A stretch of DNA of 32,631 bases from an uncultured Flavonifractor sp. GTDB lineage: Bacteria > Bacillota > Clostridia > Oscillospirales > Oscillospiraceae. Positions 19,038 through 32,630 of the stretch are shown piece after piece. The notes beneath the pieces were generated by a model. The model did no database searches. It was not told the DNA's origin and was given only the letters and a program-made list of their open reading frames with translations. The stretch is from NCBI RefSeq assembly GCF_944387675.1, contig NZ_CALXFV010000012.1:1-32631 (forward strand). The letters run 5' to 3'. The number at the start of each line of letters is the position of its first letter. The first letter of the stretch is position 1. Position numbers and translations under genes: made by a program.

Positions 19038-20537
19038 ATGGAGCGTGACCAGGCCATTGCCAAGCTGCTGTCCTATGCCCTGGAGCGGGAGCTGATTACG
19101 CCGGCGGATACCCTCTGGGCGGCCAACACCCTGCTGGAGGCGCTGGAGCTGGACGGCTGCGCCCTGCCGCACCCTCTGCCCCCCATGGGGGAGGGAGAGC
19201 TGCCTGCCGTGCTGGACGTCCTGCTGGACGACGCGGCGGAGCGGGGCGTACTGGAGGAAAACACCATCACCTACCGGGATCTGCTGGATACCAGGCTGAT
19301 GGGCGCCCTCACCCCCCGGCCCGCCCAGGTGATCGGGCGCTTCCAGGAGCTGTACCGGGAGAGTCCCCAGGCGGCCACCGACTGGTACTACAAATTTAGC
19401 CAGGACACCAACTACATCCGCCGGGACCGGATCGCCAAGGACGTGCAGTGGAAGACGGAGACCGGCTACGGGGAGCTGGATATCACCATCAACCTCTCCA
19501 AGCCGGAAAAGGACCCCAAGGCCATTGCCGCCGCACGGAACCTGCCCGCCGCCGCCTATCCCCGGTGCCAGCTGTGTGCCGAGAACGAGGGGTATGCCGG
19601 CCGGGTGAACCATCCCGCCCGGCAAAACCACCGCATCGTCCCCATCACCATCAACGGCTCTCCCTGGTTTTTGCAGTACTCCCCCTATGTGTACTACAAC
19701 GAGCACTGCATCTGCCTGAACCGGGAGCACACCCCCATGAAGATTGACCGGGCCTGCTTTGCCAAGCTGCTGGACTTTGTGGGGCAGTTCCCCCACTATT
19801 TTGTGGGCTCCAACGCGGACCTGCCCATTGTGGGCGGCTCCATTCTGGCCCACGACCATTTCCAGGGGGGGCGGTATACCTTCGCCATGGAGAAAGCGCC
19901 GGTGGAGCTGCCCTTCACCTTCCCCGGTTATGAGGACGTACAGGCGGGAATCGTCAAGTGGCCCATGGCGGTGGTGCGCCTGACCTGCCCGGATGCGGAG
20001 CGGCTGGTGGAGCTGGCTGACCGCATTCTGCTGAGCTGGCGGGGCTACACCGACGAGGCAGCCATGATTCTGGCCGAGACCGACGGGGAGCCCCACAACA
20101 CCATCACCCCCATCGCCCGGCGGCGGGGGAACGACTATGAGCTGGACCTGGTGCTGCGCAACAATCTGACCACGCCGGAGCACCCGCTGGGGCTGTACCA
20201 CCCCCACGCCCAGCTCCACCACATCAAGAAGGAGAACATCGGCCTGATCGAAGTGATGGGCCTGGCGGTTCTGCCCGCCCGCCTGAAGGCCGAGCTGGCC
20301 GCCGTGGCGGACAAGCTGGTAACGGGGGCGGACCTGCGGGCCGATCCCCTGACCGCCTCCCATGCCGACTGGGCGGAGGGCTTCCGGGACAAGTACACCC
20401 TGACGGCGGACAACGCCCTGGAGGCGGTGTATCACGAGACCGGCCTGGTCTTTGCCCAGGTGCTGGAGCACGCCGGGGTATACGCCCGCACGCCGGCGGG
20501 CCAGGAGGCGTTCCTCCGCTTCCTGCGGCAGGTGTAA
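19038..20537 (+). CDS. galT: UDP-glucose--hexose-1-phosphate uridylyltransferase, Firmicutes type (GalT2)
   Basis: Transfers UMP from UDP-glucose to galactose-1-phosphate through a uridylyl-histidine intermediate. At 499 residues it fits the long Firmicutes class (about 490-500) rather than the 350-residue E. coli class. The central block SILAHDHFQGGRYTFAMEKA carries His272-Asp-His274-Phe-Gln276, which matches the HPHxQ site of class I enzymes, so His274 is the inferred nucleophile. A second His-rich block, LGLYHPHAQLHHIKKENIG, lies further on. It starts 2 bp after galE, with its ribosome site inside galE, and ends 3 bp before galM, so translation is probably coupled. Confidence 0.95.
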   Translation: MERDQAIAKLLSYALERELITPADTLWAANTLLEALELDGCALPHPLPPMGEGELPAVLDVLLDDAAERGVLEENTITYRDLLDTRLMGALTPRPAQVIGRFQELYRESPQAATDWYYKFSQDTNYIRRDRIAKDVQWKTETGYGELDITINLSKPEKDPKAIAAARNLPAAAYPRCQLCAENEGYAGRVNHPARQNHRIVPITINGSPWFLQYSPYVYYNEHCICLNREHTPMKIDRACFAKLLDFVGQFPHYFVGSNADLPIVGGSILAHDHFQGGRYTFAMEKAPVELPFTFPGYEDVQAGIVKWPMAVVRLTCPDAERLVELADRILLSWRGYTDEAAMILAETDGEPHNTITPIARRRGNDYELDLVLRNNLTTPEHPLGLYHPHAQLHHIKKENIGLIEVMGLAVLPARLKAELAAVADKLVTGADLRADPLTASHADWAEGFRDKYTLTADNALEAVYHETGLVFAQVLEHAGVYARTPAGQEAFLRFLRQV

Positions 20538-20540
20538 GCC

Positions 20541-21578
20541 ATGGCGGAGCTGACTTGGCAGCCTTTTGGGCTTACCCGGGACCGCCGGCAGGTGGAGCTG
20601 TGGACCCTCCGGGCCGGCCGCTACGCCGCCCAGGTGCTCACCTACGGCGGCATTCTCCGGGCCTTTACCGTCCCGGCCGAGGAGGGGGAGCGGGACATTG
20701 TCCTGGGGTGCGAGACCCTGGCGGACTATGAGCGCCAGGACAAGTACCTGGGCGCCCTGGTGGGCCGGGTGGCCAACCGCATCGGCGGCGCCGCCTTTGC
20801 GCTGAACGGGACGACCTATCAGCTGGCGGCCAACAACGGCCCCAACTGCCTCCATGGCGGCCTTCACGGCTTCCATCAGGCGGTGTGGAAGGCCAGGGAG
20901 GAGCACGGCGCCCTGGTGCTTACCCACGTCAGCCCCGACGGGGAAGAGGGATTTCCCGGCGCCCTTTGGGTGCAGGTGACCTATACCCTAACCGCCGATG
21001 GAGTGCTTACCCTGGACTACCGGGGGGAGAGCACCGCCGACACCCTCTGTAATCTCACCAACCACAGTTATTTCAATCTGCTGGGCCACGCCTCCGGTTC
21101 CCTGGCGGGCCAGCAGATCCAGGTGTGGGCGGACGCCATTACCCAGACCGACGCCACCAGCGTCCCCACCGGCGTTCTGCTGCCGGTAGAGGGTACGCCC
21201 TTTGACCTGCGCCGCCCGGTGGACTTTCTCCAGGGGCTGGCCATGACCCATCCCCAGCTCACCCTGGGCAATGGCTACGACCACAATTTTGTCCTGAGCC
21301 GTCAGCCCCGCGCCCCCATGGGACTGGCCGCCCGGGTCACCGGCGGCGGACTGTGCCTGGCGTGCTATACCACCCAGCCCGGCCTCCAGCTCTACACCGC
21401 CAATTACCTGGACGGTACCCCCGGCAAGGGGGGTGTGTCCTACGGACCACGGTCGGCCTTCTGCCTGGAGACCCAGGCCTGGCCGGACGCCATCCATCAC
21501 CCGGACTTTCCCACCGTGGTGCTCCGGGCGGGGGAGAGCTACCGCCACACCACCGCCTATCGGGTGACGGCGGTATAA
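20541..21578 (+). CDS. galM: Aldose 1-epimerase (mutarotase)
   Basis: Converts beta-D-galactose to the alpha anomer that GalK uses. The 345 residues match GalM. Family blocks: YGGILRAFTVP, LGALVGRVANRIGGAAF, NNGPNCLHGGLHGF with the first active-site His, NLTNHSYFNLLGH with the catalytic His, GYDHNFVL, and ETQAWPDAIHHPDF with the base Glu. Four genes of one pathway run with gaps of 38, 2 and 3 bp, and a strong terminator follows, closing the galactose module. Confidence 0.96.
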   Translation: MAELTWQPFGLTRDRRQVELWTLRAGRYAAQVLTYGGILRAFTVPAEEGERDIVLGCETLADYERQDKYLGALVGRVANRIGGAAFALNGTTYQLAANNGPNCLHGGLHGFHQAVWKAREEHGALVLTHVSPDGEEGFPGALWVQVTYTLTADGVLTLDYRGESTADTLCNLTNHSYFNLLGHASGSLAGQQIQVWADAITQTDATSVPTGVLLPVEGTPFDLRRPVDFLQGLAMTHPQLTLGNGYDHNFVLSRQPRAPMGLAARVTGGGLCLACYTTQPGLQLYTANYLDGTPGKGGVSYGPRSAFCLETQAWPDAIHHPDFPTVVLRAGESYRHTTAYRVTAV

Positions 21579-21641: not shown

Positions 21642-22034
21642 TTATTTTTCCTGGGAAAAGCGCCATGCCTCCCCCAGCCACTCCAGCAGCTGGCCGTCTA
21701 TCTGCTCCGGCCGGTCCACCACCACGTGGTGGGTCCAGCGGTTGGGGTAGGGCTCCACCGCCACGGCAACGCGGGGGTGGTCCAACCGGCGGCCCAGGCC
21801 GAAGGTGACCAGCAGGCAGTGTTCCGGCCACCCCTTTTTCCGGCGGAAGGGCAGGGAGGCGGCGGCGAAGAGATGGCGGCCATAAAAGCTGATCTGGCTT
21901 TTCTGCACCTTCACCTGCCCCTCCGGAAAGGCGGCGCTCATGGCCTGGAACAGGGCCTCGTAGAGGGCAAGCTCCCGGTCGTGGCCGGAGAAGTAGACCT
22001 GTAAATCGGACAGGTAGTAGGGAGAGCACTCCAT
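21642..22034 (-). CDS. Small soluble protein, DUF5655-like
   Basis: A 130-residue protein with no signal peptide or membrane segment. The N-terminal YYLSDLQVYFSGHDRELALYEALFQAM is followed by KVQKSQISFYGRHLFAAASLPF, a conserved-looking LLVTFGLGRRLDHPRVA and RWTHHVVVDRPEQID. The pattern (short helical start, then a strand-rich core with KSQISFYGRHLFA) recalls DUF5655-type domains, but the family match is by eye and weak. Its start overlaps the upstream lipoprotein stop by 1 nt (TGATG), so translation is probably coupled and the two products may work together. Function unknown. Confidence 0.75.
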   Translation of the reverse strand: MECSPYYLSDLQVYFSGHDRELALYEALFQAMSAAFPEGQVKVQKSQISFYGRHLFAAASLPFRRKKGWPEHCLLVTFGLGRRLDHPRVAVAVEPYPNRWTHHVVVDRPEQIDGQLLEWLGEAWRFSQEK

Positions 22035-24124
22035 CAGCCAGCCTCCGCTGCCTGCCTGGCCAGCACTACCGCAAAGCGTCCCTCATATTTCGCCTCCTGC
22101 TGGTCGGCCTGCGACCCGTCGGAAATGGAGAAGCGGATCTCATAAATTTGCTCCGGCGCCAGACGGGCGCCGGCCTCCAGAACCTGCCCGCCGTCGGCGC
22201 ACAGGCTCCACGGCTCGCTCATTTCCCTCAGCGCCCCCGCGGCATCCTGGAAGAACAGGGTGTAGCGTGCGGGACTGCCCTCCAGGCCGTTTACCCGCAG
22301 GGCCAGGGTCTGTGTTTCCCGCAGATTCTCCACCGTTACGCTGGTCAGATATCCGGCGGGCTGGAAGTCCGCACCCAGGGCGTCATCCGCCAGGCGGACC
22401 CGGCCGGTGTCCGCCGGAGGGATCTCCTTGGCGGGGCTGTCCGGCAGGTAGGCCAGCACGTCCTGCCAGCACACCATTTCCATGGCGCCGGTGGGACAGT
22501 AGAGGGCGTTTCCGCCGGGGTCGGGGATGACGCCCACAGCCAGGTTGTTGTAGCCCGACGCCTGGGAGACGTCCATCCGCAGCAGGGTCTCTCCGGAGTC
22601 AAAGTCCAGCACCTCGTATACCCACATGCCGCTCTCCAGGTCCTGCCAATAGCCGTACAGGTAGCCGGTGGCGGTGCTCAGCTTGATCATGGTGGTTTCG
22701 TGAATGTCCGCCCGGGACCACACCTTCTCCGCGGTATAGCCGCCGTCGGTTTTGACAAAGTCCACCCGCTCCACCCCGGGGGCGATATAGACGTTGCCCT
22801 GGCTCATCCAGTTGGCGTCGTAGATGTTGTCGTAGGACTGGATGGAGGAGTCGGCGTCGGGGTCGGCCAGGCCGGAATTGCCTGCGCCGAACCAGTTGCA
22901 CACGATGACCGAGGCCGAGCCATCCCCCGGGTCGTACACCAGAATGGAGTTCTCCACCGACACGGGGACATCTTCACCCAGCTGGTCCAGTACCGGGATC
23001 TGCGCTACAATCTCCCCCGTCCGGGAGGAGAGGGCGATGAGCTGGATGGGGTCCTGGTTGTCGGTGAAGATCACCAAATCCCGGGTGAGGGTGGGGCTGG
23101 TGCCGCTGCCCCAGGCCAGGCCGCCCCCGGTGTAGCCGGAGCCTTCCTGGGCGTCGTTGGCGCCGCTGCTCTCATAGGAGGTGCGCCAGGAGACCGAGAC
23201 CCCGTCCTCCGCCGTCAGCATGTAGCAGGCCAGGTTGGTGAGGATCACCGCCCCATCCTCATTGGCGGCAATGCCGTTTTCCGCCCCTTCCCCCGGCTCC
23301 AGGGGATAGAAGAAGATGTTGTCCTCCAGCGACACCTGCTGGCCCGTTTGCAGCTGCTGCATGTACGAGCGGGAGATGTACCCCAAAAATCCCTGGGACT
23401 GCCGGTCGGGATAGATCCGGAAGCCGCCGGTGGTGAACCACAGGTTGCCCTCGTAGTCGTACACGATGCTCAGCAGATTCTGGTCAAACCCCTCGCCCAG
23501 ATGGGCCGCGGCCTGCTCCATCACGTTGATGTCCAGCAGCGGCTCAAACACCGGCAGGATCTCCCCCTGTTCATCCATGGTCTGAAGTACCAGGATGTGT
23601 CCGTGGGAGGTGGGCGCCACCACATGGTCGCTGCTGTCCACAAAGGAGTAGGAGATCTGCAGGGCGTAGCCGCCCTCGCTGTCCCGGGCGGGGACGAAGG
23701 AGCCGGCCCGCTGAATGGTGTCCCCAGTCAGGTCCGTGATGGAGATACCCCCCAGGAAGGGTGTGATGGCATTGCCCTTGCTGTCGTAAAAGGCGGCGGA
23801 AGGGGCATGGATGTTCTGGGTCTCCGTGGAGGTGGTCACCCTGGAGTAGATGCCCAGGGGCGCCACCGCGTCGGTGACGTCGGTGGCATAGACGTCGTTA
23901 TGAATGGAATTGTCGCTTGCGGCCATGTAGGGGTTTGGGGTCACGGCCTTGGCCGGAAGGGGGTGGGGGACCAGCGCCGTCCGGCCCTCCGGCCCGGCCG
24001 CGGGGCTGGATACCGGACTGTCGGCCGGGCTGTTCTCCGGTCCGGTGGGCTGCCCGGCGCAGCCCTGACAGGCCAGCAGCAGGGCCAGCGCCGCTGCACA
24101 CAGGGGGAAAAGGCGTTTTTTCAT
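22034..24124 (-). CDS. Large secreted lipoprotein of unknown function, beta-propeller-like
   Basis: 696 residues with a signal peptide and lipobox LLAC (Cys19; a second Cys at 22 is possible), then a Pro/Ser/Gly-rich linker to about residue 47, so it is a surface lipoprotein. The rest is strand-rich with recurrent segments such as NLWFTTGGFRI, GAVILTNLACYMLTAEDG, TRDLVIFTDNQDPIQLIALSS and TMIKLSTATGYLYGYWQD. These look like blades of a quinoprotein/WD-type propeller, giving a possible interaction platform. The C-terminal ~110 residues may form a separate beta-sandwich. No catalytic motif was recognised. The ATG has GGAGGA 7 nt upstream, and an extended -10 promoter lies at 24167-24195. It diverges from the DISM-type kinase operon and shares its control region. 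Confidence 0.85.
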   Translation of the reverse strand: MKKRLFPLCAAALALLLACQGCAGQPTGPENSPADSPVSSPAAGPEGRTALVPHPLPAKAVTPNPYMAASDNSIHNDVYATDVTDAVAPLGIYSRVTTSTETQNIHAPSAAFYDSKGNAITPFLGGISITDLTGDTIQRAGSFVPARDSEGGYALQISYSFVDSSDHVVAPTSHGHILVLQTMDEQGEILPVFEPLLDINVMEQAAAHLGEGFDQNLLSIVYDYEGNLWFTTGGFRIYPDRQSQGFLGYISRSYMQQLQTGQQVSLEDNIFFYPLEPGEGAENGIAANEDGAVILTNLACYMLTAEDGVSVSWRTSYESSGANDAQEGSGYTGGGLAWGSGTSPTLTRDLVIFTDNQDPIQLIALSSRTGEIVAQIPVLDQLGEDVPVSVENSILVYDPGDGSASVIVCNWFGAGNSGLADPDADSSIQSYDNIYDANWMSQGNVYIAPGVERVDFVKTDGGYTAEKVWSRADIHETTMIKLSTATGYLYGYWQDLESGMWVYEVLDFDSGETLLRMDVSQASGYNNLAVGVIPDPGGNALYCPTGAMEMVCWQDVLAYLPDSPAKEIPPADTGRVRLADDALGADFQPAGYLTSVTVENLRETQTLALRVNGLEGSPARYTLFFQDAAGALREMSEPWSLCADGGQVLEAGARLAPEQIYEIRFSISDGSQADQQEAKYEGRFAVVLARQAAEAG

Positions 24125-24226: not shown

Positions 24227-24245
24227 TTGACAATTTTGTAAGGTT
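24227..24245 (+). promoter_or_regulatory. Candidate operator, copy 1 (between divergent promoters)
   Basis: Contains ACAATTTTGTAAGGTT (24230-24245), identical to 26939-26954 upstream of the surface-protein gene. It lies just upstream of the kinase promoter's -35 region and about 32 bp behind the -35 of the divergent lipoprotein promoter. The OmpR-type regulator at 26251 is the likely binder (inferred). Confidence 0.55.
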
Positions 24246-24247
24246 CT

Positions 24248-24275
24248 TTGCTTTTGAAGCGTTTGATGGTACACT
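24248..24275 (+). promoter_or_regulatory. Candidate promoter of the DISM kinase operon
   Basis: TTGCTT (24248-24253) and TACACT (24270-24275) with a 16-bp spacer. The -10 begins exactly 40 bp after the start of the shared 16-bp motif. Confidence 0.5.
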
Positions 24276-24310
24276 AGATCCAGAGAAACGGCAGGGGAGG
24301 TGAAGGCAGG

Positions 24311-26254
24311 TTGCGTGCTGGCGGAGCGGCCCGGCTGAGCGGGCTGAGATGGCTGGGACCCGTGGCTGTGGTGGTGCTGGCGCTGCTGATCGTCCAGCTG
24401 TTCAGCAGCCGGCGGCAGACGGAGTTTCAGGAGCTTGTCCCTGTGGACGGGGTGCTGGACATCACGGAAGCGGATCTGGACAGCCGGGTTTTCAACATCA
24501 GCAACCAAAATTGGGAATTCTATCCCAACCGGCTCTACACCTCCCAGGATTTTGCTGCCGGCGTAGCCCGGGACGGCGGGGAGGGGGACCAGGCCCGGTA
24601 CGGTACGTACCGCCTGGTGATCCGGGCCAGGCCCGGACAGTACTATACCCTGTGCAGCTACTCCATTGACTACAGCACCGCTGTATTCGTCAACGGCCGG
24701 CAGATCCTCTCCTTCGGGAAGGTGGCGGACAACGCCGAAGAGAGCGAACCCGGCATCGGCTACATGACCGTGCCGCTGTATACCGGCACGTCGGGGGAGA
24801 TTGAGCTTATCTACCACTATGCCAACTTTGTCCACCGGGACGGCGGCTTCATCCAGCCCACCTATCTCTCCGCGCCCAAGAATATGGAGGCGTACAAGGC
24901 GGGCAACGACCTGGTCTCCGTGGGACTGAGCGGCGGCATGGTGATTTTGTGCCTCTACTTTCTGCTGTGCGGCGCGGTGCAGCGGCGGGTGGCCTTCTGC
25001 CTGCTGTCCGCCTGCTGCCTGCTGATCGCCCTGCGGGACCAGAACTTCCTGCTGCTCCACCTGATGCCCTCCGGCACCTCCTGGTATCTGACCTACCGGA
25101 TTTTTATCGGGGTGTCCGCCCTGCTGCCCGGGCTGCTGCTGGTGCTGCTCAACAGCATCTATGCCGGCGCGGTAAAGCGGTGGGTGATGCTCCTGTACGG
25201 GGCGGCCATGGGGGGCGCCGTGGCGCTCATCGCCCTGCTGCCCACCGTCTATCTGGTGCTGGTGTGCAGCGCCGTGTGGGTGCTGGGGATCCCCGTCCTG
25301 CTCCTGCTGATCCTGGGAGCGGTGCGCGGCCAGCTGCGGAAGCGGAGCTTTGACGCGGCGGACGCGCTGACGGCCAGCGGCTCGCTGGTGCTGGTGGCCT
25401 CCATTGTGCTGGAAGGGCTTCTGGTCAGCAGCAGCTCGGCCGTCAGCCGCTACGGCGTCACGCCCAGCGGCATGCTGGTGTTTATCCTGCTGGTGGCGGT
25501 CTCCGTGGGCCTGCGCTCCCAGGGACAGGAGGCGGCCCTGGCGGAGAGCAGGAGCCGCAGTCAGCTGCTGGAGCAGATGAACGCCATGAATCTGGACTTT
25601 CTCCACCAGGTGGCCCACGAGCTGAAGACGCCCCTGACGGTTATCTCCGGCTATGCCCAGCTCACCGGCCTTCAGCTTGCCGCCAACCACATCACCGGAG
25701 AGACCCGGGAGAATCTGAAAACCATCCAGGGGGAGGCGCTGCGCCTGGCGGACATGGTGACCAAGCTGATGGAATACTCCCACGGCCAGCGCAGCGAGGT
25801 GCAGTTCGGAACGGTGGAGGTGGCGCCGCTGCTGGAGAGCGTCCAGGCCGTCTGCACCCCTATGTGCCTGAAGAACAACAACCGCATGGTGGTGCAGGGC
25901 ATGGACTGCGCGGATGTGTACGGCAACCGGACCATGCTGCTGCAAATCTTCATCAACCTGGTGGTCAACGCCAACCGGCACACGAAGGACGGGACGATTA
26001 CCATCAGCGCCTCGGACTGGGAGCACCGGGAGTACGTGGTGTTCCGGACGGCGGACACGGGGGACGGCATTGACCAGGAGCATCTGCCCCACTTGTTTGA
26101 AAAGGGATACAGCGGGGACGGCGGCAGCGGCCTAGGTCTGGCCATCTGCCGGGAGGCGGCGGAGGCCCACGGCGGGATGCTGGAGGTGGAGCGCACCGGC
26201 CCGGACGGGACGGTATTTGTCTTTACAGTACTGAGAAGGGAGCTGGGGCAATGA
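24311..26254 (+). CDS. Sensor histidine kinase with 7TM-DISM-like sensor
   Basis: A 647-residue membrane kinase. It has an N-terminal membrane segment (about 12-32), an extracellular domain of about 160 residues with strand-rich segments such as YRLVIRARPGQYYTLCSYSIDYSTA and YMTVPLYTGTSGEIELIYHYANF that resemble DISM jelly-roll domains, then a cluster of about seven hydrophobic segments (about 200-400). The kinase core follows: HisKA with His436 in HQVAHELKTPLTVISGYAQL, HATPase N box INLVVNANRHTK, G1 ADTGDGI and G2 GGSGLGLAICREA. The start is a TTG at 24311 with GGGGAGGTG 8 nt upstream; no suitable ATG exists. It overlaps the regulator gene by 4 nt (ATGA). The signal is unknown; DISM domains often bind carbohydrate-like ligands, which would suit an envelope or glycan sensor. 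Confidence 0.88.
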   Translation: MRAGGAARLSGLRWLGPVAVVVLALLIVQLFSSRRQTEFQELVPVDGVLDITEADLDSRVFNISNQNWEFYPNRLYTSQDFAAGVARDGGEGDQARYGTYRLVIRARPGQYYTLCSYSIDYSTAVFVNGRQILSFGKVADNAEESEPGIGYMTVPLYTGTSGEIELIYHYANFVHRDGGFIQPTYLSAPKNMEAYKAGNDLVSVGLSGGMVILCLYFLLCGAVQRRVAFCLLSACCLLIALRDQNFLLLHLMPSGTSWYLTYRIFIGVSALLPGLLLVLLNSIYAGAVKRWVMLLYGAAMGGAVALIALLPTVYLVLVCSAVWVLGIPVLLLLILGAVRGQLRKRSFDAADALTASGSLVLVASIVLEGLLVSSSSAVSRYGVTPSGMLVFILLVAVSVGLRSQGQEAALAESRSRSQLLEQMNAMNLDFLHQVAHELKTPLTVISGYAQLTGLQLAANHITGETRENLKTIQGEALRLADMVTKLMEYSHGQRSEVQFGTVEVAPLLESVQAVCTPMCLKNNNRMVVQGMDCADVYGNRTMLLQIFINLVVNANRHTKDGTITISASDWEHREYVVFRTADTGDGIDQEHLPHLFEKGYSGDGGSGLGLAICREAAEAHGGMLEVERTGPDGTVFVFTVLRRELGQ

Positions 26255-26919
26255 GCACGCTGCTGCTGGTGGAGGACAACCCCCACATTATGAAGATCAA
26301 CGCCGAGGCGCTGGGTATGTACGGATATGAAATTTTGAAGGCCGCCACTGCGGCGGAATGCCGCCAGGCCCTGCGGTGGCATCCGGTGGACCTGGTGGTG
26401 CTGGACATCATGCTGCCCGACGGCAACGGAGTGGAGCTGTGCCGGGAGATCAAGGAGCAGTACCACATCCCCATCCTGTTTCTCAGTGCGCTGGGGGAGA
26501 GCAAGGACGTGGTGGAGGGACTGCGGGCCGGGGGCGACGACTATCTGTCCAAGCCCTATGACCTGGAGGTGCTGGCCGCCCGGATCGAGGCCCGGCTGCG
26601 TCAGGAAGGGGAGCGGAGCCGGTATGTGTGCTACGGCGGGCTGAGGCTGGACGTGCTCTCCGGCAGCGGCTGTCTGAACGGCCAGGATCTTCCCCTGACG
26701 CAGAAGGAGTTTGCGCTGCTGCTGCTGCTGGCCCGCAACGGGGGAGAAACGGTGTCCAAGGGGACGGTGCTCCGCCAGGTGTGGAACGCGGACAGCGAGG
26801 ACGACAACCGGATGCTCTGGACTCTGATTTCCCGCCTACGCCGGAAGCTGGACAGCCGCAACTCCCGGCTGGAGATCTCCTCCAGGCGGGGGGACGGATA
26901 TGTGCTGGAGCAGATTTAA
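26251..26919 (+). CDS. OmpR/PhoB-family response regulator
   Basis: 222 residues. The receiver domain (about 1-115) has VEDN, phospho-acceptor Asp52 in VVLDIMLPDG, Ser/Thr in LFLSALG and Lys in DDYLSKPYD. The winged-helix DNA-binding domain (about 130-222) has LTQKEFALLLLLARNGGETVSKG and ends RRGDGYVLEQI. The ATG overlaps the kinase stop as ATGA. Its inferred targets are the two copies of ACAATTTTGTAAGGTT upstream of its own operon and of the following surface-protein gene. There is no terminator in the short gap downstream. Confidence 0.94.
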   Translation: MSTLLLVEDNPHIMKINAEALGMYGYEILKAATAAECRQALRWHPVDLVVLDIMLPDGNGVELCREIKEQYHIPILFLSALGESKDVVEGLRAGGDDYLSKPYDLEVLAARIEARLRQEGERSRYVCYGGLRLDVLSGSGCLNGQDLPLTQKEFALLLLLARNGGETVSKGTVLRQVWNADSEDDNRMLWTLISRLRRKLDSRNSRLEISSRRGDGYVLEQI

Positions 26920-26936
26920 CCGGTGGAAGAGTTACT

Positions 26937-26954
26937 TTACAATTTTGTAAGGTT
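26937..26954 (+). promoter_or_regulatory. Candidate operator, copy 2 (surface-protein gene)
   Basis: TTACAATTTTGTAAGG contains an inverted repeat (TTACAA/TTGTAA, 2-nt centre) and the 16-bp motif shared with 24230-24245. It begins 17 bp after the regulator stop codon. Confidence 0.55.
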
Positions 26955-26956
26955 TC

Positions 26957-26984
26957 TCTTGAAGGAGGATTGAGATGGTAAAAT
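26957..26984 (+). promoter_or_regulatory. Candidate promoter of the surface-protein gene
   Basis: TCTTGA (26957-26962) and TAAAAT (26979-26984) with a 16-bp spacer and TGG in front of the -10 box (extended -10). The -10 starts 40 bp after the shared motif start, as in the kinase promoter. Confidence 0.55.
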
Positions 26985-27032: not shown

Positions 27033-30000
27033 GTGAAGAAGCGAATGCTAGCCCTGCTGGTGTGCCTGGGTATGCTGCTGTGTATCCCGCTGGCAGTTGC
27101 CGGCGCCCAGGGAACGGCCCAGACTTACCTGGCTCTGGGCGACAGTATCACCACCGGAGAAGGCCTGGGGGAGGACGAGCTGTCCTTTGCCCAGATGGTG
27201 GCGGAGGGCCATTCCTACATTCTGGACGACACCCTGGCCAAAAACGGGGCGACCACGCTGGACGTGCTGAATAGTTTGGCCGAGCCGGCCAACGCCGCCA
27301 AGCTGGCCCAGGCGGACGTGATCACCCTCACCGTGGGCGGAAACGACCTGATGGGTGCGCTGTACAGCTATCTGACGGCTCAGTACAACGCCCAGCCCGG
27401 GGTGGAGACGGAGCTCTCCGTGGAAGAGATGCAGGAAAAGCTGATGAATGCGGATCTTATGACGCTGGCCTTTGCCCTGGGCGTGCTGCCGGACTTCGCC
27501 CAATCGGCGGAGGCGGCGGAGGCTTTGCAGAGCTTTAGTACCCAATTCGGGCAGATCGTCGCCGGGGTGAAGGCAGCCAATCCAGACGTGGTGCTGATTG
27601 TGGCTAACCAGTATAACCCCTACAGCCATACCGGCGCGGGGCTGACAGGGCAGCAGGCCGTGTGGGCCGGCATCCTCTCCTCCTCCTTTGAGGCGGGAGT
27701 GACCGCCCTCAACGCCGCGATCCAGCTGGTGAGCACCCAGACGGGGTGTCTGGTGGCCGACGCCTACTCTGTCTTTGCGGCTGCCGGGGAGAATCCGTGC
27801 AACGCCACCTTTGCCACCTCTCCCATCAATCTGGACTTCCATCCCAACGCATACGGCCACACCCTGCTGGCGGAAGCGGTGGAGACCGTCCTGCCCATGG
27901 AGCAGCCGGAGCAGACGGAGGGCGTCAATGTGGGCGGCCTGGCCCTGATTTCCGACGGTGTCCCTGTCTATGCGGTGACCAGCAGCCTGGGCAAGGTGAC
28001 CGCCGCCACGGAAGGGGACAGCTGGAACGTGAAGTATGACGGCCAGACTCTCACCCTGAAGGATGCCACCGTTCTGGGCGGCAACTACGGGGTCCGCTCC
28101 TATGGCGGCCTGACTCTGGAGTTGGTCGGCGACAACAAGGTTGGCACCCTGGGCGGCGGGGAGCTCGTCTACGGCGTCTACGTGGACGGGAACTTGACCA
28201 TCCAGGGCAGCGGCAGCCTGTCAGCGGCGGCGGCCAAAGTCTCATGGGAGGATGGTTCCAGCTACGGCATGTATACTGTGGGTGACCTCACTGTTACGGG
28301 CGGCAGCATTTCCGTCCTGGGCGGTGCAGGCGATTACAGCTTCGGCATCTACACAGGCGGCAGCCTTACCGTGGAAGCGCCCGCTCAGGTGTCCGCTGTG
28401 GGCGGCGCCTCCGTATTGGACAGCATAGGTATATGTGCGAAAGACGGCACGCTTACCATCTCCGGCGGCACGGTGAACGCTGCCGGCGGCTCATGCATCG
28501 GCGAATATTGGGGTATCAGCAGCGGATTGTATACCATTCATGGGGATACCGTCATCAGCGGCGGTACGGTGGTTGCCACAGGCGAGGTGGCTGACTACTG
28601 GTCCACCGGCATCAGAAGCGGCGCCAAGCTGGTCGTGACCGGCGGCAGCATCACCGCTTCCGCTGTGGGGACCGACGATTCTTCGTCATCCAATTTTGGC
28701 ATTTACAGCTACAATCAGGTGGAAATTACCGGAACCCCCACGATCTATGCCTCTTGCGACGACGAGAATCAGGTGGGCATTTACGTTTACGACGGGGATA
28801 TCACGCTGAACGGGGAAAAGCAGATCCTGGATTCAGGCGTCCTGAACATCCAGGAGGGAAAGGTCATCAGCGGCATCCGGACGAACCGGATACTGGTCGT
28901 AAACGGGGTGGATGTCCTTACCGCTGAAAACTATACGGTTGCCTGCGGCGACGGCGCCGCCGTCTACGATCCGGAGAGCGGCGTGCTCACCTTGACCGAT
29001 GCGGTCATCGACACGCCCTTCCGAGAGCCTGACTCCAGGTGGGCCAACTACGCGGGCATCTACTCCGACCTGGAGACGCCCGTCATCATTGCCCTTCGTG
29101 GCCAGAACAGCATCGTCACCAGCGGGCTGTACCACGGAGTCCGCACCATGGGAGATCTGATCATCCGGGGCGACGGCGCCTTGGAGATTTTTGAACAGAA
29201 TGACCCTATGGTCGCCATTAATACCGGCGGCAACCTGACGCTGGAGGGCGGCGAGCTGGCGCTGGATGTTACATACTACGGCGTGTATGTGGAAGGGAGG
29301 CTGAACATCACCGGCGGTAAGCTGGACATCAACTGCGGGGGCGACTCATACACCGACAGGTGCCTGTACATATGCAATGGCATGAGCATGAGCGGCGGCG
29401 TTGTAACCCTCCAGTACGGCGTGTCTTCGGCAATTTACATGGAAAAAGGAGGACTGGAGATCAGCGGCGGTGAGCTGCGGGGGCTCAGCGAGGAAGTGGA
29501 CCCCAGCGGCATCTCGATGATGCGCGACGGCTGCTCGATTACCGGCGGCATCGTGGATTTCGCAGGCTCGTTCAGCATATACAATATAGACGAATGTGAG
29601 ACGGCGCTTTCCGTAACCGGAGGCGAGCTGAAGGTTACCGCCCGCCGACTCGGACTGAATATTTTCTATGGCACGCTGTCCATCGGCGGGGACGCCAACG
29701 TTACCGCTGTGACCGTTGAGGAAGGCGGCCTCTCAGGCTACGCGCCCGAAATTCAGGTAAACGGTGTTTCGGGCTATTTGGCGGACAGCGCTTTGCTGGA
29801 GGTGAAGGACGGCCAGATTGTCAGCGGGCTTCACCTCAGCACGGTGTTTGTCAACGGTACGGACCTGCTCCTTGCGGAGAATCACACCGTTGCCTGCGGC
29901 GGAGGTACCGCGGTTTATGATCCGGAGGCCGGGGTGCTTACGCTGAAGGACGCGGAAATCACGACCGGATACACCTTTAACAATACCAAATTCAAAACCG

Positions 30001-32018
30001 TTTCCGGCGGCATTGTCAGCGATGGGAATCTGACCCTTGTGCTGGAGGGCAGCAGCACCATCAGCGGAGGGTTGTACTACGGCGTGTACAGCAAAAACGC
30101 CCTGACCGTCCAGGGTGACGGTGCGCTCACCGTCACGGCCGACGGCTACGGCATCGCGGCCAACCGTGATTTGAATCTTGCGGGCGGCACTCTGATCGTC
30201 CGTGCCGACGGCGGATTGAGAAATGACCCGGAGGATTGGCTTTACGAGGAATATTTTGCCGCGCTGGCGTCCACCGGCGGGACTGTCAAAATTACCGGGG
30301 GCAGCATTGGGGCCGACGCCGTTGGCGGGGAGTACAGGAGCGTCTTTGCCTATTATAACGTGAGCATTACCGGCGGCACCCTCAACGCCTCCCTCACCCT
30401 TCCCGCCGACCAGGAGAGCACGAGGTGCGCTGCGCTGACGGCCTACAACGGCAACCTCAGCATTCAGGGCGGCACGGTGACCATCACGGCGCAGGGGGAA
30501 TCCCTTTTTGGCATAAAGGGCGGCAATACGAACATCACGGGCGGCACGGTTACCGTGACGGCGGAAGGCGCGAACAGCGCCGGAATTTACCTCTGGAGTA
30601 ATAACCTGCTTACGATCAGCGGTGCAAAGACGGTGGTCAGCGTGTCCGGAACCAGCGTGGGTATGGAAGGAAATCTGACGCTCAACGGCGGTACGGCGAC
30701 CGTAACCGCCACCGACGGCGTCGCCCTGAACCTGTACACCGGCGGCCTGGAGCTGAAGACCGACGCCAAGCTCACCCTGTCCGGACCGGTCGCCATCTGC
30801 CTGATGGACGGCGAACACAACGTGGCGGTGGAGGAAGTGCTGCGGCTGCCCAAGGGAAGCCTGCCCGACGGGTACGAGCTGAGCAAGCTGACTGCGGCCA
30901 ATGAGAGCGGAGAGGATGTGTACATCTATACCGTGAGCAAGACTGGGGAAGAGCCGAGCTATGACGCCGCCACCGGCAGTCTTACCGGCGCCGCCACCGA
31001 GCTGACCATCTATGTCGCCGGTGGCAGCTCCTCCGGCGGTTCCTACGGCGGCTCCGGGAACAAGACCGAGACCACCACCAATCCCGACGGCTCCACCACT
31101 ACCACGGTGACCAAGCCTGACGGCACGGTGACCGAGACCACCAACTGTCCTGACGGCAGCAGCTCCTCTACCGTTACGGCCGGGGAGACCAGCGCTTCGG
31201 AGACCCAGGTTTCCCTGTCTCAGGAGCGGCTGGACAGCACCCAGAGCAACACGGTCTCCCTGCCCATGTCCGCAGTCACTGCCGCCGCCGAGTCGGAGAA
31301 GGCACCCACCGTTACGGTGAAGCTGCCCTCCAGCGAAGCCGCTCAGGTGGAGATCCCTGTGGCCGGCGTGACCGCCGGCACCGTGGCGGTTCTGGTCAAG
31401 GAAGACGGAAGCGAGACGGTAATACAGACCTCGCTACCCACCGCTCAGGGTGTGGTGCTCACCGCCCACGACGGCGATACCTTTAAGATTGTGGACAACA
31501 GCAAAACGTTTACAGACGTTGAGGCGACCCATTGGGGCGCGGACGACGTGGCCTTTGTCAGCAGCCGGGAGCTGTTTTCCGGCACCAGTGAGAGCACCTT
31601 CTCTCCCGAGCTGACCATGAGCCGGGGCATGGCCCTTACGCTCCTGGCCCGGTTTGACGGCGTGGACACCTCCGGCGGAGACACCTGGTATGAGGTGGGC
31701 CGTCAGTGGGCCATGGAGGAGGGCATCTCCGACGGCACCAATATGGACGCCGATCTCACCCGGGAACAGCTGGCCACCATGCTCTGCCGCTACGCCCAGT
31801 ATAAGGGCTATGATGTGGAAGCCGGGGAGAGCGCCGATCTCCAGAACTTCCCGGACGGCGGCGAGACCAGCGACTTTGCCGTATCCGCCCTCCAGTGGGC
31901 CTGCGGCGCAGGTATCATCAACGGCAAGGGCGATGGTACGCTGGCGCCCGCCGGCACCGCCACCCGGGTGGAGGCGGCGGCCATGTTCATGCGTTTCTGC
32001 CAGTGGATCGCTGGCTGA
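27033..32018 (+). CDS. Surface-anchored SGNH/GDSL hydrolase with beta-helix repeats and three SLH domains
   Basis: A 1,661-residue exported protein. The GTG at 27033 was chosen because AAGGAGG lies 8 nt upstream and a signal peptide follows at once; the ATG at 27006 has no ribosome site. Residues 1 to about 26 are the signal peptide. About 28-290 is an SGNH hydrolase: Ser38 in LALGDSITTGEG, block III TVGGNDLMG near 103-111, and HPNAYGH with catalytic His near 270. About 295-1330 is strand-rich, with many GGTVTVTA/GGSLTISGG-type rungs of a beta-helix (carbohydrate-binding Cthe_2159-like), split into modules by two similar headers (VNGVDVLTAENYTVACGDG near 620; VNGTDLLLAENHTVACGGG near 940). 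A Ser/Thr/Gly-rich linker (TTTTVTKPDGTVTETT) leads to three SLH domains (about 1490-1660) that bind wall secondary polymers. It probably acts as a wall-bound esterase or deacetylase on glycans; substrate unknown. Confidence 0.9.
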   Translation: MKKRMLALLVCLGMLLCIPLAVAGAQGTAQTYLALGDSITTGEGLGEDELSFAQMVAEGHSYILDDTLAKNGATTLDVLNSLAEPANAAKLAQADVITLTVGGNDLMGALYSYLTAQYNAQPGVETELSVEEMQEKLMNADLMTLAFALGVLPDFAQSAEAAEALQSFSTQFGQIVAGVKAANPDVVLIVANQYNPYSHTGAGLTGQQAVWAGILSSSFEAGVTALNAAIQLVSTQTGCLVADAYSVFAAAGENPCNATFATSPINLDFHPNAYGHTLLAEAVETVLPMEQPEQTEGVNVGGLALISDGVPVYAVTSSLGKVTAATEGDSWNVKYDGQTLTLKDATVLGGNYGVRSYGGLTLELVGDNKVGTLGGGELVYGVYVDGNLTIQGSGSLSAAAAKVSWEDGSSYGMYTVGDLTVTGGSISVLGGAGDYSFGIYTGGSLTVEAPAQVSAVGGASVLDSIGICAKDGTLTISGGTVNAAGGSCIGEYWGISSGLYTIHGDTVISGGTVVATGEVADYWSTGIRSGAKLVVTGGSITASAVGTDDSSSSNFGIYSYNQVEITGTPTIYASCDDENQVGIYVYDGDITLNGEKQILDSGVLNIQEGKVISGIRTNRILVVNGVDVLTAENYTVACGDGAAVYDPESGVLTLTDAVIDTPFREPDSRWANYAGIYSDLETPVIIALRGQNSIVTSGLYHGVRTMGDLIIRGDGALEIFEQNDPMVAINTGGNLTLEGGELALDVTYYGVYVEGRLNITGGKLDINCGGDSYTDRCLYICNGMSMSGGVVTLQYGVSSAIYMEKGGLEISGGELRGLSEEVDPSGISMMRDGCSITGGIVDFAGSFSIYNIDECETALSVTGGELKVTARRLGLNIFYGTLSIGGDANVTAVTVEEGGLSGYAPEIQVNGVSGYLADSALLEVKDGQIVSGLHLSTVFVNGTDLLLAENHTVACGGGTAVYDPEAGVLTLKDAEITTGYTFNNTKFKTVSGGIVSDGNLTLVLEGSSTISGGLYYGVYSKNALTVQGDGALTVTADGYGIAANRDLNLAGGTLIVRADGGLRNDPEDWLYEEYFAALASTGGTVKITGGSIGADAVGGEYRSVFAYYNVSITGGTLNASLTLPADQESTRCAALTAYNGNLSIQGGTVTITAQGESLFGIKGGNTNITGGTVTVTAEGANSAGIYLWSNNLLTISGAKTVVSVSGTSVGMEGNLTLNGGTATVTATDGVALNLYTGGLELKTDAKLTLSGPVAICLMDGEHNVAVEEVLRLPKGSLPDGYELSKLTAANESGEDVYIYTVSKTGEEPSYDAATGSLTGAATELTIYVAGGSSSGGSYGGSGNKTETTTNPDGSTTTTVTKPDGTVTETTNCPDGSSSSTVTAGETSASETQVSLSQERLDSTQSNTVSLPMSAVTAAAESEKAPTVTVKLPSSEAAQVEIPVAGVTAGTVAVLVKEDGSETVIQTSLPTAQGVVLTAHDGDTFKIVDNSKTFTDVEATHWGADDVAFVSSRELFSGTSESTFSPELTMSRGMALTLLARFDGVDTSGGDTWYEVGRQWAMEEGISDGTNMDADLTREQLATMLCRYAQYKGYDVEAGESADLQNFPDGGETSDFAVSALQWACGAGIINGKGDGTLAPAGTATRVEAAAMFMRFCQWIAG

Positions 32019-32180: not shown

Positions 32181-32224
32181 AACCCAAAAAGAAAGACACG
32201 CTGGAAAGCGTGCCTTTCTTTTTG
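32181..32224. terminator. Bidirectional terminator hairpin, copy 1 of a 44-bp direct repeat
   Basis: AAAAAGAAAGACACGCT pairs with AGCGTGCCTTTCTTTTT around GGAA with one A-C mismatch (stem 32186-32223). A- and T-runs on both sides suit both directions. The 44 bp are identical to 32396-32439. For the plus strand it is the likely terminator of the surface-protein gene. Confidence 0.85.
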
Positions 32225-32262: not shown

Positions 32263-32397
32263 CCCCACACAGTGGGGCGGCGCCTTTGCGCCGCACAAGC
32301 GTTTTGCCGCAGGCAAAACCTTGGCGCAGGGGCAATTCATTTGCCCCGAGCATGTCAAATTTCCGGAGGGTGGAGGCGGCCTCTATGGCCGCCGGAA
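32263..32397. repeat. Ladder of five consecutive short hairpins
   Basis: Five perfect stems follow one another: CCCCAC/GTGGGG (32263-32277), GCGGCGC/GCGCCGC (32277-32294), GTTTTGCC/GGCAAAAC (32301-32319), GGGGCAA/TTGCCCC (32329-32347) and GGCGGCC/GGCCGCC (32375-32393), the last inside an outer TTCCGG/CCGGAA (32361-32397). Loops are 3-5 nt. It has no coding potential I would trust. It resembles dispersed intergenic hairpin repeats of gut Clostridia, but a structured RNA is possible. Confidence 0.65.
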
Positions 32398-32439
32398 CCC
32401 AAAAAGAAAGACACGCTGGAAAGCGTGCCTTTCTTTTTG
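32396..32439. terminator. Bidirectional terminator hairpin, copy 2; tRNA operon terminator
   Basis: Identical over 44 bp to 32181-32224, including the same A-C mismatch in the stem (32401-32438). On the minus strand it starts directly at the CCA end of tRNA-Cys, so it terminates the tRNA-Gly/tRNA-Cys transcript. Confidence 0.85.
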
Positions 32440-32511
32440 GAGGCGACACCCAGACTCGAACTGGGGGTGGAGCTTTTGCAGAGCTCTGCCTTACCACTTG
32501 GCTATGTCGCC
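32438..32511 (-). tRNA. tRNA-Cys (anticodon GCA)
   Basis: 74 nt with encoded CCA. Acceptor arm GGCGACA/TGTCGCC (perfect), D arm GCC..GGC with loop AGTGGTAA, anticodon arm GAGCT-CTGCAAA-AGCTC giving anticodon GCA, 4-nt variable loop, T arm CCCAG-TTCGAGT-CTGGG, discriminator U. It is second in a minus-strand tRNA operon after tRNA-Gly. Confidence 0.95.
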
Positions 32512-32554: not shown

Positions 32555-32630
32555 TGGAGCAGGTGACGAGGCTCGAACTCGCTACCTCCACCTTGGCAAG
32601 GTGGCGCTCTACCAGATGAGCTACACCTGC
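32555..32630 (-). tRNA. tRNA-Gly (anticodon GCC)
   Basis: 76 nt with encoded CCA. Acceptor arm GCAGGTG/CACCTGC (perfect), D arm GCTC..GAGC, anticodon loop TTGCCAA giving anticodon GCC between CACC and GGTG stems, T arm with loop TTCGAGC, discriminator U. Its promoter lies beyond the right edge. Confidence 0.96.

Follow-up and report, generated by a model that had tools for sequence, protein, structure and literature searches.

What purpose is served by a short sequence that stands, exactly repeated and at the same distance from a promoter, before both a two-component operon and the gene of a giant surface protein? The question is raised by a stretch of 32,631 nucleotides from an uncultured Flavonifractor sp. 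(contig NZ_CALXFV010000012.1 of assembly GCF_944387675.1), which as a whole is called the window below. A first-pass annotation had reported a 16-bp motif at 24230 and 26939, each copy with a -10 box 40 bp from its start and GATGG ahead of that box, and had concluded that both promoters share one activator, most simply the OmpR-type regulator encoded between them. On the present analysis, the palindrome TTACA-N4-TGTAA followed by GG is a better description of the motif. This element is very probably the operator of the regulator encoded at 26251, which would activate its own operon and the adjacent surface protein gene, because the same arrangement of the box recurs in many relatives. The features concerned are these:

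24227..24245, plus strand: box 1, TTGACAATTTTGTAAGGTT, lying ahead of the kinase-regulator operon as its proposed operator; its position is conserved in relatives.
24267..24275, plus strand: extended -10 (TGG TACACT) of the kinase-regulator operon, with the hexamer 40 bp from the start of ACAATTTTGTAAGGTT.
24311..26254, plus strand: sensor histidine kinase with a transmembrane helix, an extracellular beta-sandwich, seven transmembrane helices of 7TMR-DISM type, HisKA and HATPase_c.
26251..26919, plus strand: OmpR/PhoB-type response regulator, 222 aa, with Response_reg and Trans_reg_C; proposed activator, recognition helix LWTLISRLRRKL.
26936..26954, plus strand: box 2, TTTACAATTTTGTAAGGTT, lying ahead of the gene of the giant surface protein as its proposed operator.
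26976..26984, plus strand: extended -10 (TGG TAAAAT) of the surface protein gene, with the hexamer 40 bp from the start of ACAATTTTGTAAGGTT.
27033..32018, plus strand: giant protein of 1661 aa from GTG, predicted to be a secreted surface protein, with a signal-like N-terminus and with GDSL/SGNH hydrolase, Cthe_2159 carbohydrate-binding and SLH domains.

Both copies of the motif are as first described. ACAATTTTGTAAGGTT is exact at 24230-24245 and 26939-26954 on the plus strand, and these are its sole matches at up to three mismatches in the window (0.04 expected from shuffling) and at up to two mismatches in the organism's own genome, a draft of 2,230,112 bases in 168 contigs, 85.6% complete, in which the reversed pattern gave none. 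On extension of the match leftwards, the 16-mer was seen to be one side of the palindrome CTTACAATTTTGTAAG, which reads TTGACAATTTTGTAAGG at site 1 and TTTACAATTTTGTAAGG at site 2. Exact matches to TNACANNNNTGTAAGG in the own genome were again these two sites only, with none for the reversed pattern. As far as this genome is assembled, the regulon would consist of just the two sites. The -10 hexamers, TACACT at 24270-24275 and TAAAAT at 26979-26984, lie where they had been placed, each preceded by GATGG. The genes that follow are the kinase and surface protein genes, in agreement with the earlier assignment of the promoters; they probably start with TTG at 24311 and GTG at 27033, each behind a GGAGG-like sequence (read by eye). 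The TTGACA at 24227 was rejected as a -35 element because it lies 37 bp from the -10.

The kinase is patchily distributed. The 19 other genomes of the genus yielded one clear orthologue (60%) and one weak partial match, and a match at E 1e-20 was found in 7 of 400 genomes of the family, the own genome included. A scan of named genomes with the single kinase sequence found no match; with a kinase alignment it returned 100 relatives, of which the best 80 were kept, representing 78 distinct loci. These include loci of Oscillibacter valericigenes An411, Pseudoflavonifractor An85, Gemmiger An87 and Anaeromassilibacillus An172. Eight of the 78 (L090-L097), which were kinase-domain-only hits, were left out, and the remaining 70 were examined with the window. 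L086-L089 were also left out of the per-locus counts and of the match count over 999,135 bases, one site of L089 being kept in the site and spacing counts; the per-locus sample is therefore 67 loci, namely 66 relatives and the window.

A box with up to three mismatches was found in set windows beside the kinase or regulator gene in 61 of the 67 loci: on both sides in 25, upstream of the kinase only in 18, behind the operon only in 18, and in neither place in 6. At up to two mismatches, CTTACAATTTTGTAAG had 86 matches in the 999,135 bases of these loci, and 79 of them lay beside a kinase or regulator gene, in windows amounting to about 3.7% of the sequence. When the palindrome was shuffled, 200 draws gave a mean of 0.19 matches and a maximum of 6. 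A chance repeat was rejected, the box being rare in the window and the own genome and concentrated at the two-component system in relatives; the first-pass annotation had itself named a common, randomly placed motif as grounds for refutation, and the opposite was observed.

The spacing is conserved as well. Sites with four mismatches, and sites with three away from the two-component system, were removed before the spacing and per-locus counts. The best -10 lay at offset 41-44 from the start of the 16-mer in 82 of 100 sites on the forward strand; in the reverse-strand control, 13 of 100 had a -10 there. When sites alike in the 44 bases downstream were removed, 71 of 78 had a -10 at one of two adjacent offsets, 42 and 43, which the first-pass annotation would count as 39 and 40 bp, and other offsets mostly occurred about once in the 78; offsets 38 (16) and 48 (11) share a T with the hexamer at 43. 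The constancy holds behind the regulator (24/27) and before the kinase (33/36). Among the 71 correctly spaced sites, 50 carry a TG extension, the recurring part of GATGG, at extended -10 spacing; the consensus of the relatives retains nothing further of that pentamer. A -35-like hexamer is present in 4 of the 71 and lacking in 67. The centre of the palindrome lies 35 bp before the -10, or near -47.5 on the assumption of a usual start site. As judged from the sequence, this geometry is that of an activator.

Which protein binds the box is suggested first by proximity. Open reading frames were called mechanically in the 67 loci, with gene families seeded from 10 of them, and no family outside those of the kinase and the regulator recurred in more than 16 loci; no other constant transcription-factor gene was found beside the box. 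One seed with hits in 50 loci (L040 7195-9801) was rejected, as it is a hybrid kinase that hit the kinase or regulator genes themselves in 49 loci and other places in 3. A suggestive correlation also favors the adjacent regulator as binder: where the regulator has an RLR recognition helix, GTAAG is followed by G at all 37 of 37 sites, and where it has RLN, by A or T at 38 of 42. Together with the conserved box and spacing at the two-component system, the comparison supports the OmpR-type regulator as the probable single activator, as had been claimed.

The genes behind the box are mainly those of surface-type proteins. The first gene behind each box was chosen by script, and 46 of 54 such genes behind boxes away from the kinase start encode a signal-like hydrophobic N-terminus (31/35 behind the regulator, 5/6 behind the kinase, 10/13 elsewhere). 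Pfam was run on 12 of the 54, and on three more in An172. The 12 include proteins with SLH, GDSL and Cthe_2159 domains, BspA-type leucine-rich repeats, Listeria-Bacteroides repeats, dockerin, collagen repeats, fn3 and immunoglobulin-like domains. Also among them are a tetratricopeptide repeat protein (L041), a solute-binding lipoprotein (L024) and fused ATP-binding cassette (ABC) proteins (L020, L024). In Anaeromassilibacillus An172, four boxes with at most one mismatch lie away from the kinase locus, each with a perfect TATAAT at offset 43. Behind three of these unlinked boxes are genes for dockerin proteins with signal-like N-termini (1662, 375 and at least 2109 aa), and the fourth lies at a contig end. 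In this genome the box is a mark of a regulon, not a mere local signature, because four unlinked boxes share the spacing.

The signal received by the system may be approached through the kinase, a protein of 647 aa in which the model places a transmembrane helix, an all-beta extracellular domain and seven transmembrane helices before the kinase core. Alignments for folding comprised 41 of 53 listed near-full-length relatives and the window kinase; 31 of these 42 sequences match the 7TMR-DISM_7TM domain at E 0.01. The window kinase itself matches at E 0.00082, yet remains under the curated cut-off (19.8 vs 29 bits). Its extracellular domain (residues 34-190), which has no Pfam match, is modeled as a beta-sandwich with a predicted local distance difference test score of 90. 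The best solved matches to this domain include the carbohydrate-binding modules CBM35 and CBM6, and they are weak (template modeling score about 0.4-0.45) and stand among unrelated jelly-roll proteins; a sugar or glycan as the signal is therefore a guess from a model. In a fold search with the whole kinase, the 50 matches listed were to kinase domains.

From these elements the following sequence of events may be proposed. The membrane kinase, with its extracellular beta-sandwich and seven transmembrane helices, would sense a ligand outside the cell, perhaps a sugar or glycan, and would, as in its family generally, phosphorylate the regulator. A regulator dimer would then bind the palindrome, whose sequence and spacing are directly seen, and would recruit RNA polymerase to extended -10 promoters that usually lack a -35. 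Expression of the kinase-regulator operon would rise in positive feedback, along with that of the giant surface protein next to it. Relatives have this box ahead of genes for other secreted or surface proteins, including unlinked ones in one genome.

The alternative that survives best, improbable as it is, holds that a regulator of the Bce/GraR type, which responds to antimicrobial peptides, binds the box and that the surface protein belongs to an envelope-stress regulon. Both boxes of the window fit the Bce-type operator consensus TNACA-N4-TGTAA given in excerpts of PMC9020739, which excerpts of PMC10858260 give likewise for PsdR/ApsR, and they resemble the GraR site ACAAA-TTTGT in excerpts of PMC3128592. 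Furthermore, the 19-mer (up to one mismatch) occurs in 17 of the 400 genomes of the family, with none for the reversed pattern; two of the 17 carry the DISM kinase, and in all of the other 15 the box stands just before genes for an ABC ATPase and a permease. FtsX was confirmed by Pfam in the six Bce-type loci whose permease was scanned, L169 among them being MacB-like. The box comes right behind a regulator-kinase pair in 11 of the 15, and in L168 it follows a kinase gene truncated at the start of the contig. In the genome of the window, however, the consensus occurs at the two sites only, and no BceAB-type transporter (ATPase with FtsX permease) was found among the eight window open reading frames scanned. 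The promoters differ as well: a second TGTAAG half-site is present in 10 of 15 Bce-type loci versus 1 of 87 DISM-type sites, and a -10-like hexamer lies at offset 59 or 68-69 in 14 of the 15, these hexamers being weak and several of the loci close kin. The unlinked boxes of An172, moreover, precede surface-type proteins with the spacing of 43.

A tree of 39 regulators separates the two types. It held 15 of 59 DISM-family regulators (chosen by hand), 13 of 14 other regulators of the own genome and, from the 15 Bce-type loci, the regulators of 11. The 15 DISM regulators form one group (100/98) and the 11 Bce-type regulators another (100/97). Since the backbone is weak (67/73), the two groups may be distant sisters, and they may have their operator by common descent. 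The structure PDB 5dcm, which we take to be NsrR, ranked 17th for the whole regulator profile and was not among the 51 hits of the DNA-binding domain.

Slightly less probable still is the view that the copy behind the regulator gene is merely the operon terminator, its likeness to the upstream box being secondary. One further feature bears on this:

26927..26960, plus strand: imperfect inverted repeat with 16-nt arms, 81% complementary, surrounding box 2; no terminator is scored here in the window.

In the relatives, the palindrome behind the regulator is longer than that before the kinase (median half-length 15 vs 10, p 1.3e-5), more stable (median -18.4 vs -8.05 kcal/mol, p 2.5e-7) and more often has a long arm together with a T-rich tail (20/36 vs 6/42). 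The box of L035 lies at the core of a perfect terminator-like hairpin with seven T's behind it. Against this view, the same core and -10 spacing hold on both sides of the operon and at unlinked sites, and copy 2 of the window was not scored as a terminator. Because the box behind the regulator is often the core of such a hairpin, one sequence may have two jobs in many relatives, ending the regulator operon and turning on the surface gene. The least credible proposal, that the regulator acts at the box as a repressor, draws on the fact that binding beside a promoter does not in itself reveal the sign of the effect, but the 16-bp box stops 27 bp short of the -10, which it leaves uncovered, and the near-general lack of a -35-like hexamer is typical of activator-dependent promoters.

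Activation of both genes by the adjacent regulator thus remains the preferred explanation, and several points weigh against it. Activation instead of repression is inferred from position only. Six of the 67 loci have no box in the set windows: in L020, L024 and L026 it lies about 2.9 kb upstream of the kinase, in L021 far downstream and in L085 about 560 bp before the kinase match used, and L082 has none close. The clear orthologue in the same genus (G013, equal to L012/L027) has no box upstream of the kinase, and L014, L015 and L016 have none before the giant gene; neither position is therefore universal. The weaker An172 boxes, with three mismatches, deviate in spacing where scored (in L120 the -10 is at 46). 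The p-value of the helix-base correlation, 2.8e-18, takes no account of relatedness, the correlation being essentially one split between two clades. Finally, this DNA-binding domain is encoded at 15 places in the own genome, and another regulator could therefore bind the box.

A wider proposal is more tentative and, on balance, somewhat doubtful. It supposes a widespread, undescribed module of Clostridia, in which a glycan-sensing kinase with seven transmembrane helices and an OmpR-type regulator are dedicated to turning on giant adhesins, dockerin proteins and S-layer proteins. A BceR-like palindrome would have been adopted independently, with another promoter geometry, and a single element would serve as terminator and operator, where binding could alter read-through. 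The system gives a testable handle on when little-studied Clostridia make very large surface proteins. Two regulator lineages with nearly the same operator and two promoter geometries form a natural comparison, of interest for how OmpR-family regulators avoid acting on one another's targets, and operator and terminator-like hairpin overlap in a compact arrangement.

Variants of the locus were also observed. The order is reversed, with the regulator before the kinase, in L055, L058, L064, L075 and L084, where the box lies between the two genes; L055, L064 and L084 have a second box just behind the kinase. L020, L023, L024 and L026 carry a box at nearly equal distance, about 2.9 kb, upstream of the kinase. 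The upstream box of L024 precedes genes for an SBP_bac_3 lipoprotein, a permease and an ABC ATPase leading to the kinase, and from this gene order a link of the DISM module to solute uptake is possible. The box in L020 (18750-21428) and L024 (18947-21625) is followed by a polypeptide of 893 aa that unites, by Pfam, family-3 solute-binding, permease and ABC ATPase domains; it is also present in L021 and L025 and looks like an unusual fusion. Two Gemmiger genomes (L040 7195-9801; L085 8570-11173) encode a hybrid histidine kinase close upstream of the region of the DISM kinase, and that of L040, the one scanned with Pfam, has a Cache sensor and a receiver domain.

The neighborhood of the pair in the window begins with a divergent gene:

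22034..24124, minus strand: divergent predicted lipoprotein, 696 aa, with no Pfam or NCBIfam match; neighbor.

It has an apparent promoter of its own on the minus strand, about 30 bp from box 1, with TTGACA (24195-24190), 17 bp and TAGACA (24172-24167); this was read by eye, the consensus scan, which requires a final T, having missed it. The lipoprotein shows no homology to the ABC protein behind the box in L020. Upstream of its gene lie galT and galM of the Leloir pathway (19038-21578). At the other end of the window, a perfect direct repeat of 44 nt (32181-32224 and 32396-32439, 215 bp from start to start), which is itself a terminator-like hairpin, adjoins genes for tRNA-Cys (32438-32511) and tRNA-Gly (32555-32630), both on the minus strand.

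Among known systems, RetS, LadS, SagS and RgsP combine the seven-helix DISM module with an N-terminal extracellular beta domain. The window kinase has such a seven-helix module and, in the model, a beta-sandwich domain outside the cell. The named examples, in the excerpts available, are proteobacterial, whereas the window encodes a plain kinase paired with an OmpR-type regulator in Clostridia. In excerpts from the open-licence literature, no clostridial 7TMR-DISM two-component system of this kind was found, and no matching overlap of operator and terminator, nor two-component control of S-layer or Oscillospiraceae proteins, was recognized; this is weak evidence of absence.

XydS/XydR of Clostridium cellulolyticum resembles the present system as a clostridial two-component system activating adjacent dockerin and CBM6 proteins, with binding by XydR demonstrated by electrophoretic mobility shift assay (excerpts of PMC3572039). 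The DNA-binding domain of XydR, however, is of AraC type, and the passages of that paper contain no similar palindrome consensus. As an OmpR/PhoB regulator, the window protein has a receiver and a winged-helix Trans_reg_C domain. This family binds short direct repeats according to excerpts of PMC3128592, whereas the window regulator is associated with an inverted repeat, like GraR, VirR and BceR.

The closest comparison is with the Bce-type systems (BceR, PsdR/ApsR, GraR, VirR), whose kinases are described as an intramembrane-sensing family in excerpts of PMC3023708. In both, OmpR-family regulators use a TNACA-N4-TGTAA operator, and the box often ends the two-component operon just before the target gene. 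Both also have a small residue before RLR in the recognition helix, T, N or A in 10 of 11 Bce-type rows and S in 15 of 15 DISM rows, which is not exclusive to them, as the own-genome regulator L137 has A. The window regulator falls in another supported group of the tree. A Bce-type kinase is small and without an extracellular domain, whereas that of the window has an extracellular beta-sandwich and seven transmembrane helices. BceR promoters are bipartite, with the second half-site downstream, and the Bce-type loci compared here have a box, a second half-site and a -10 at 59 or 68-69; DISM promoters have one box and a -10 at 42-43. The targets of the DISM system, moreover, are mainly surface-type proteins. 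The DISM system is thus one that works like a Bce-type promoter switch, yet among five tests of Bce membership it departs in four and agrees in the operator alone.

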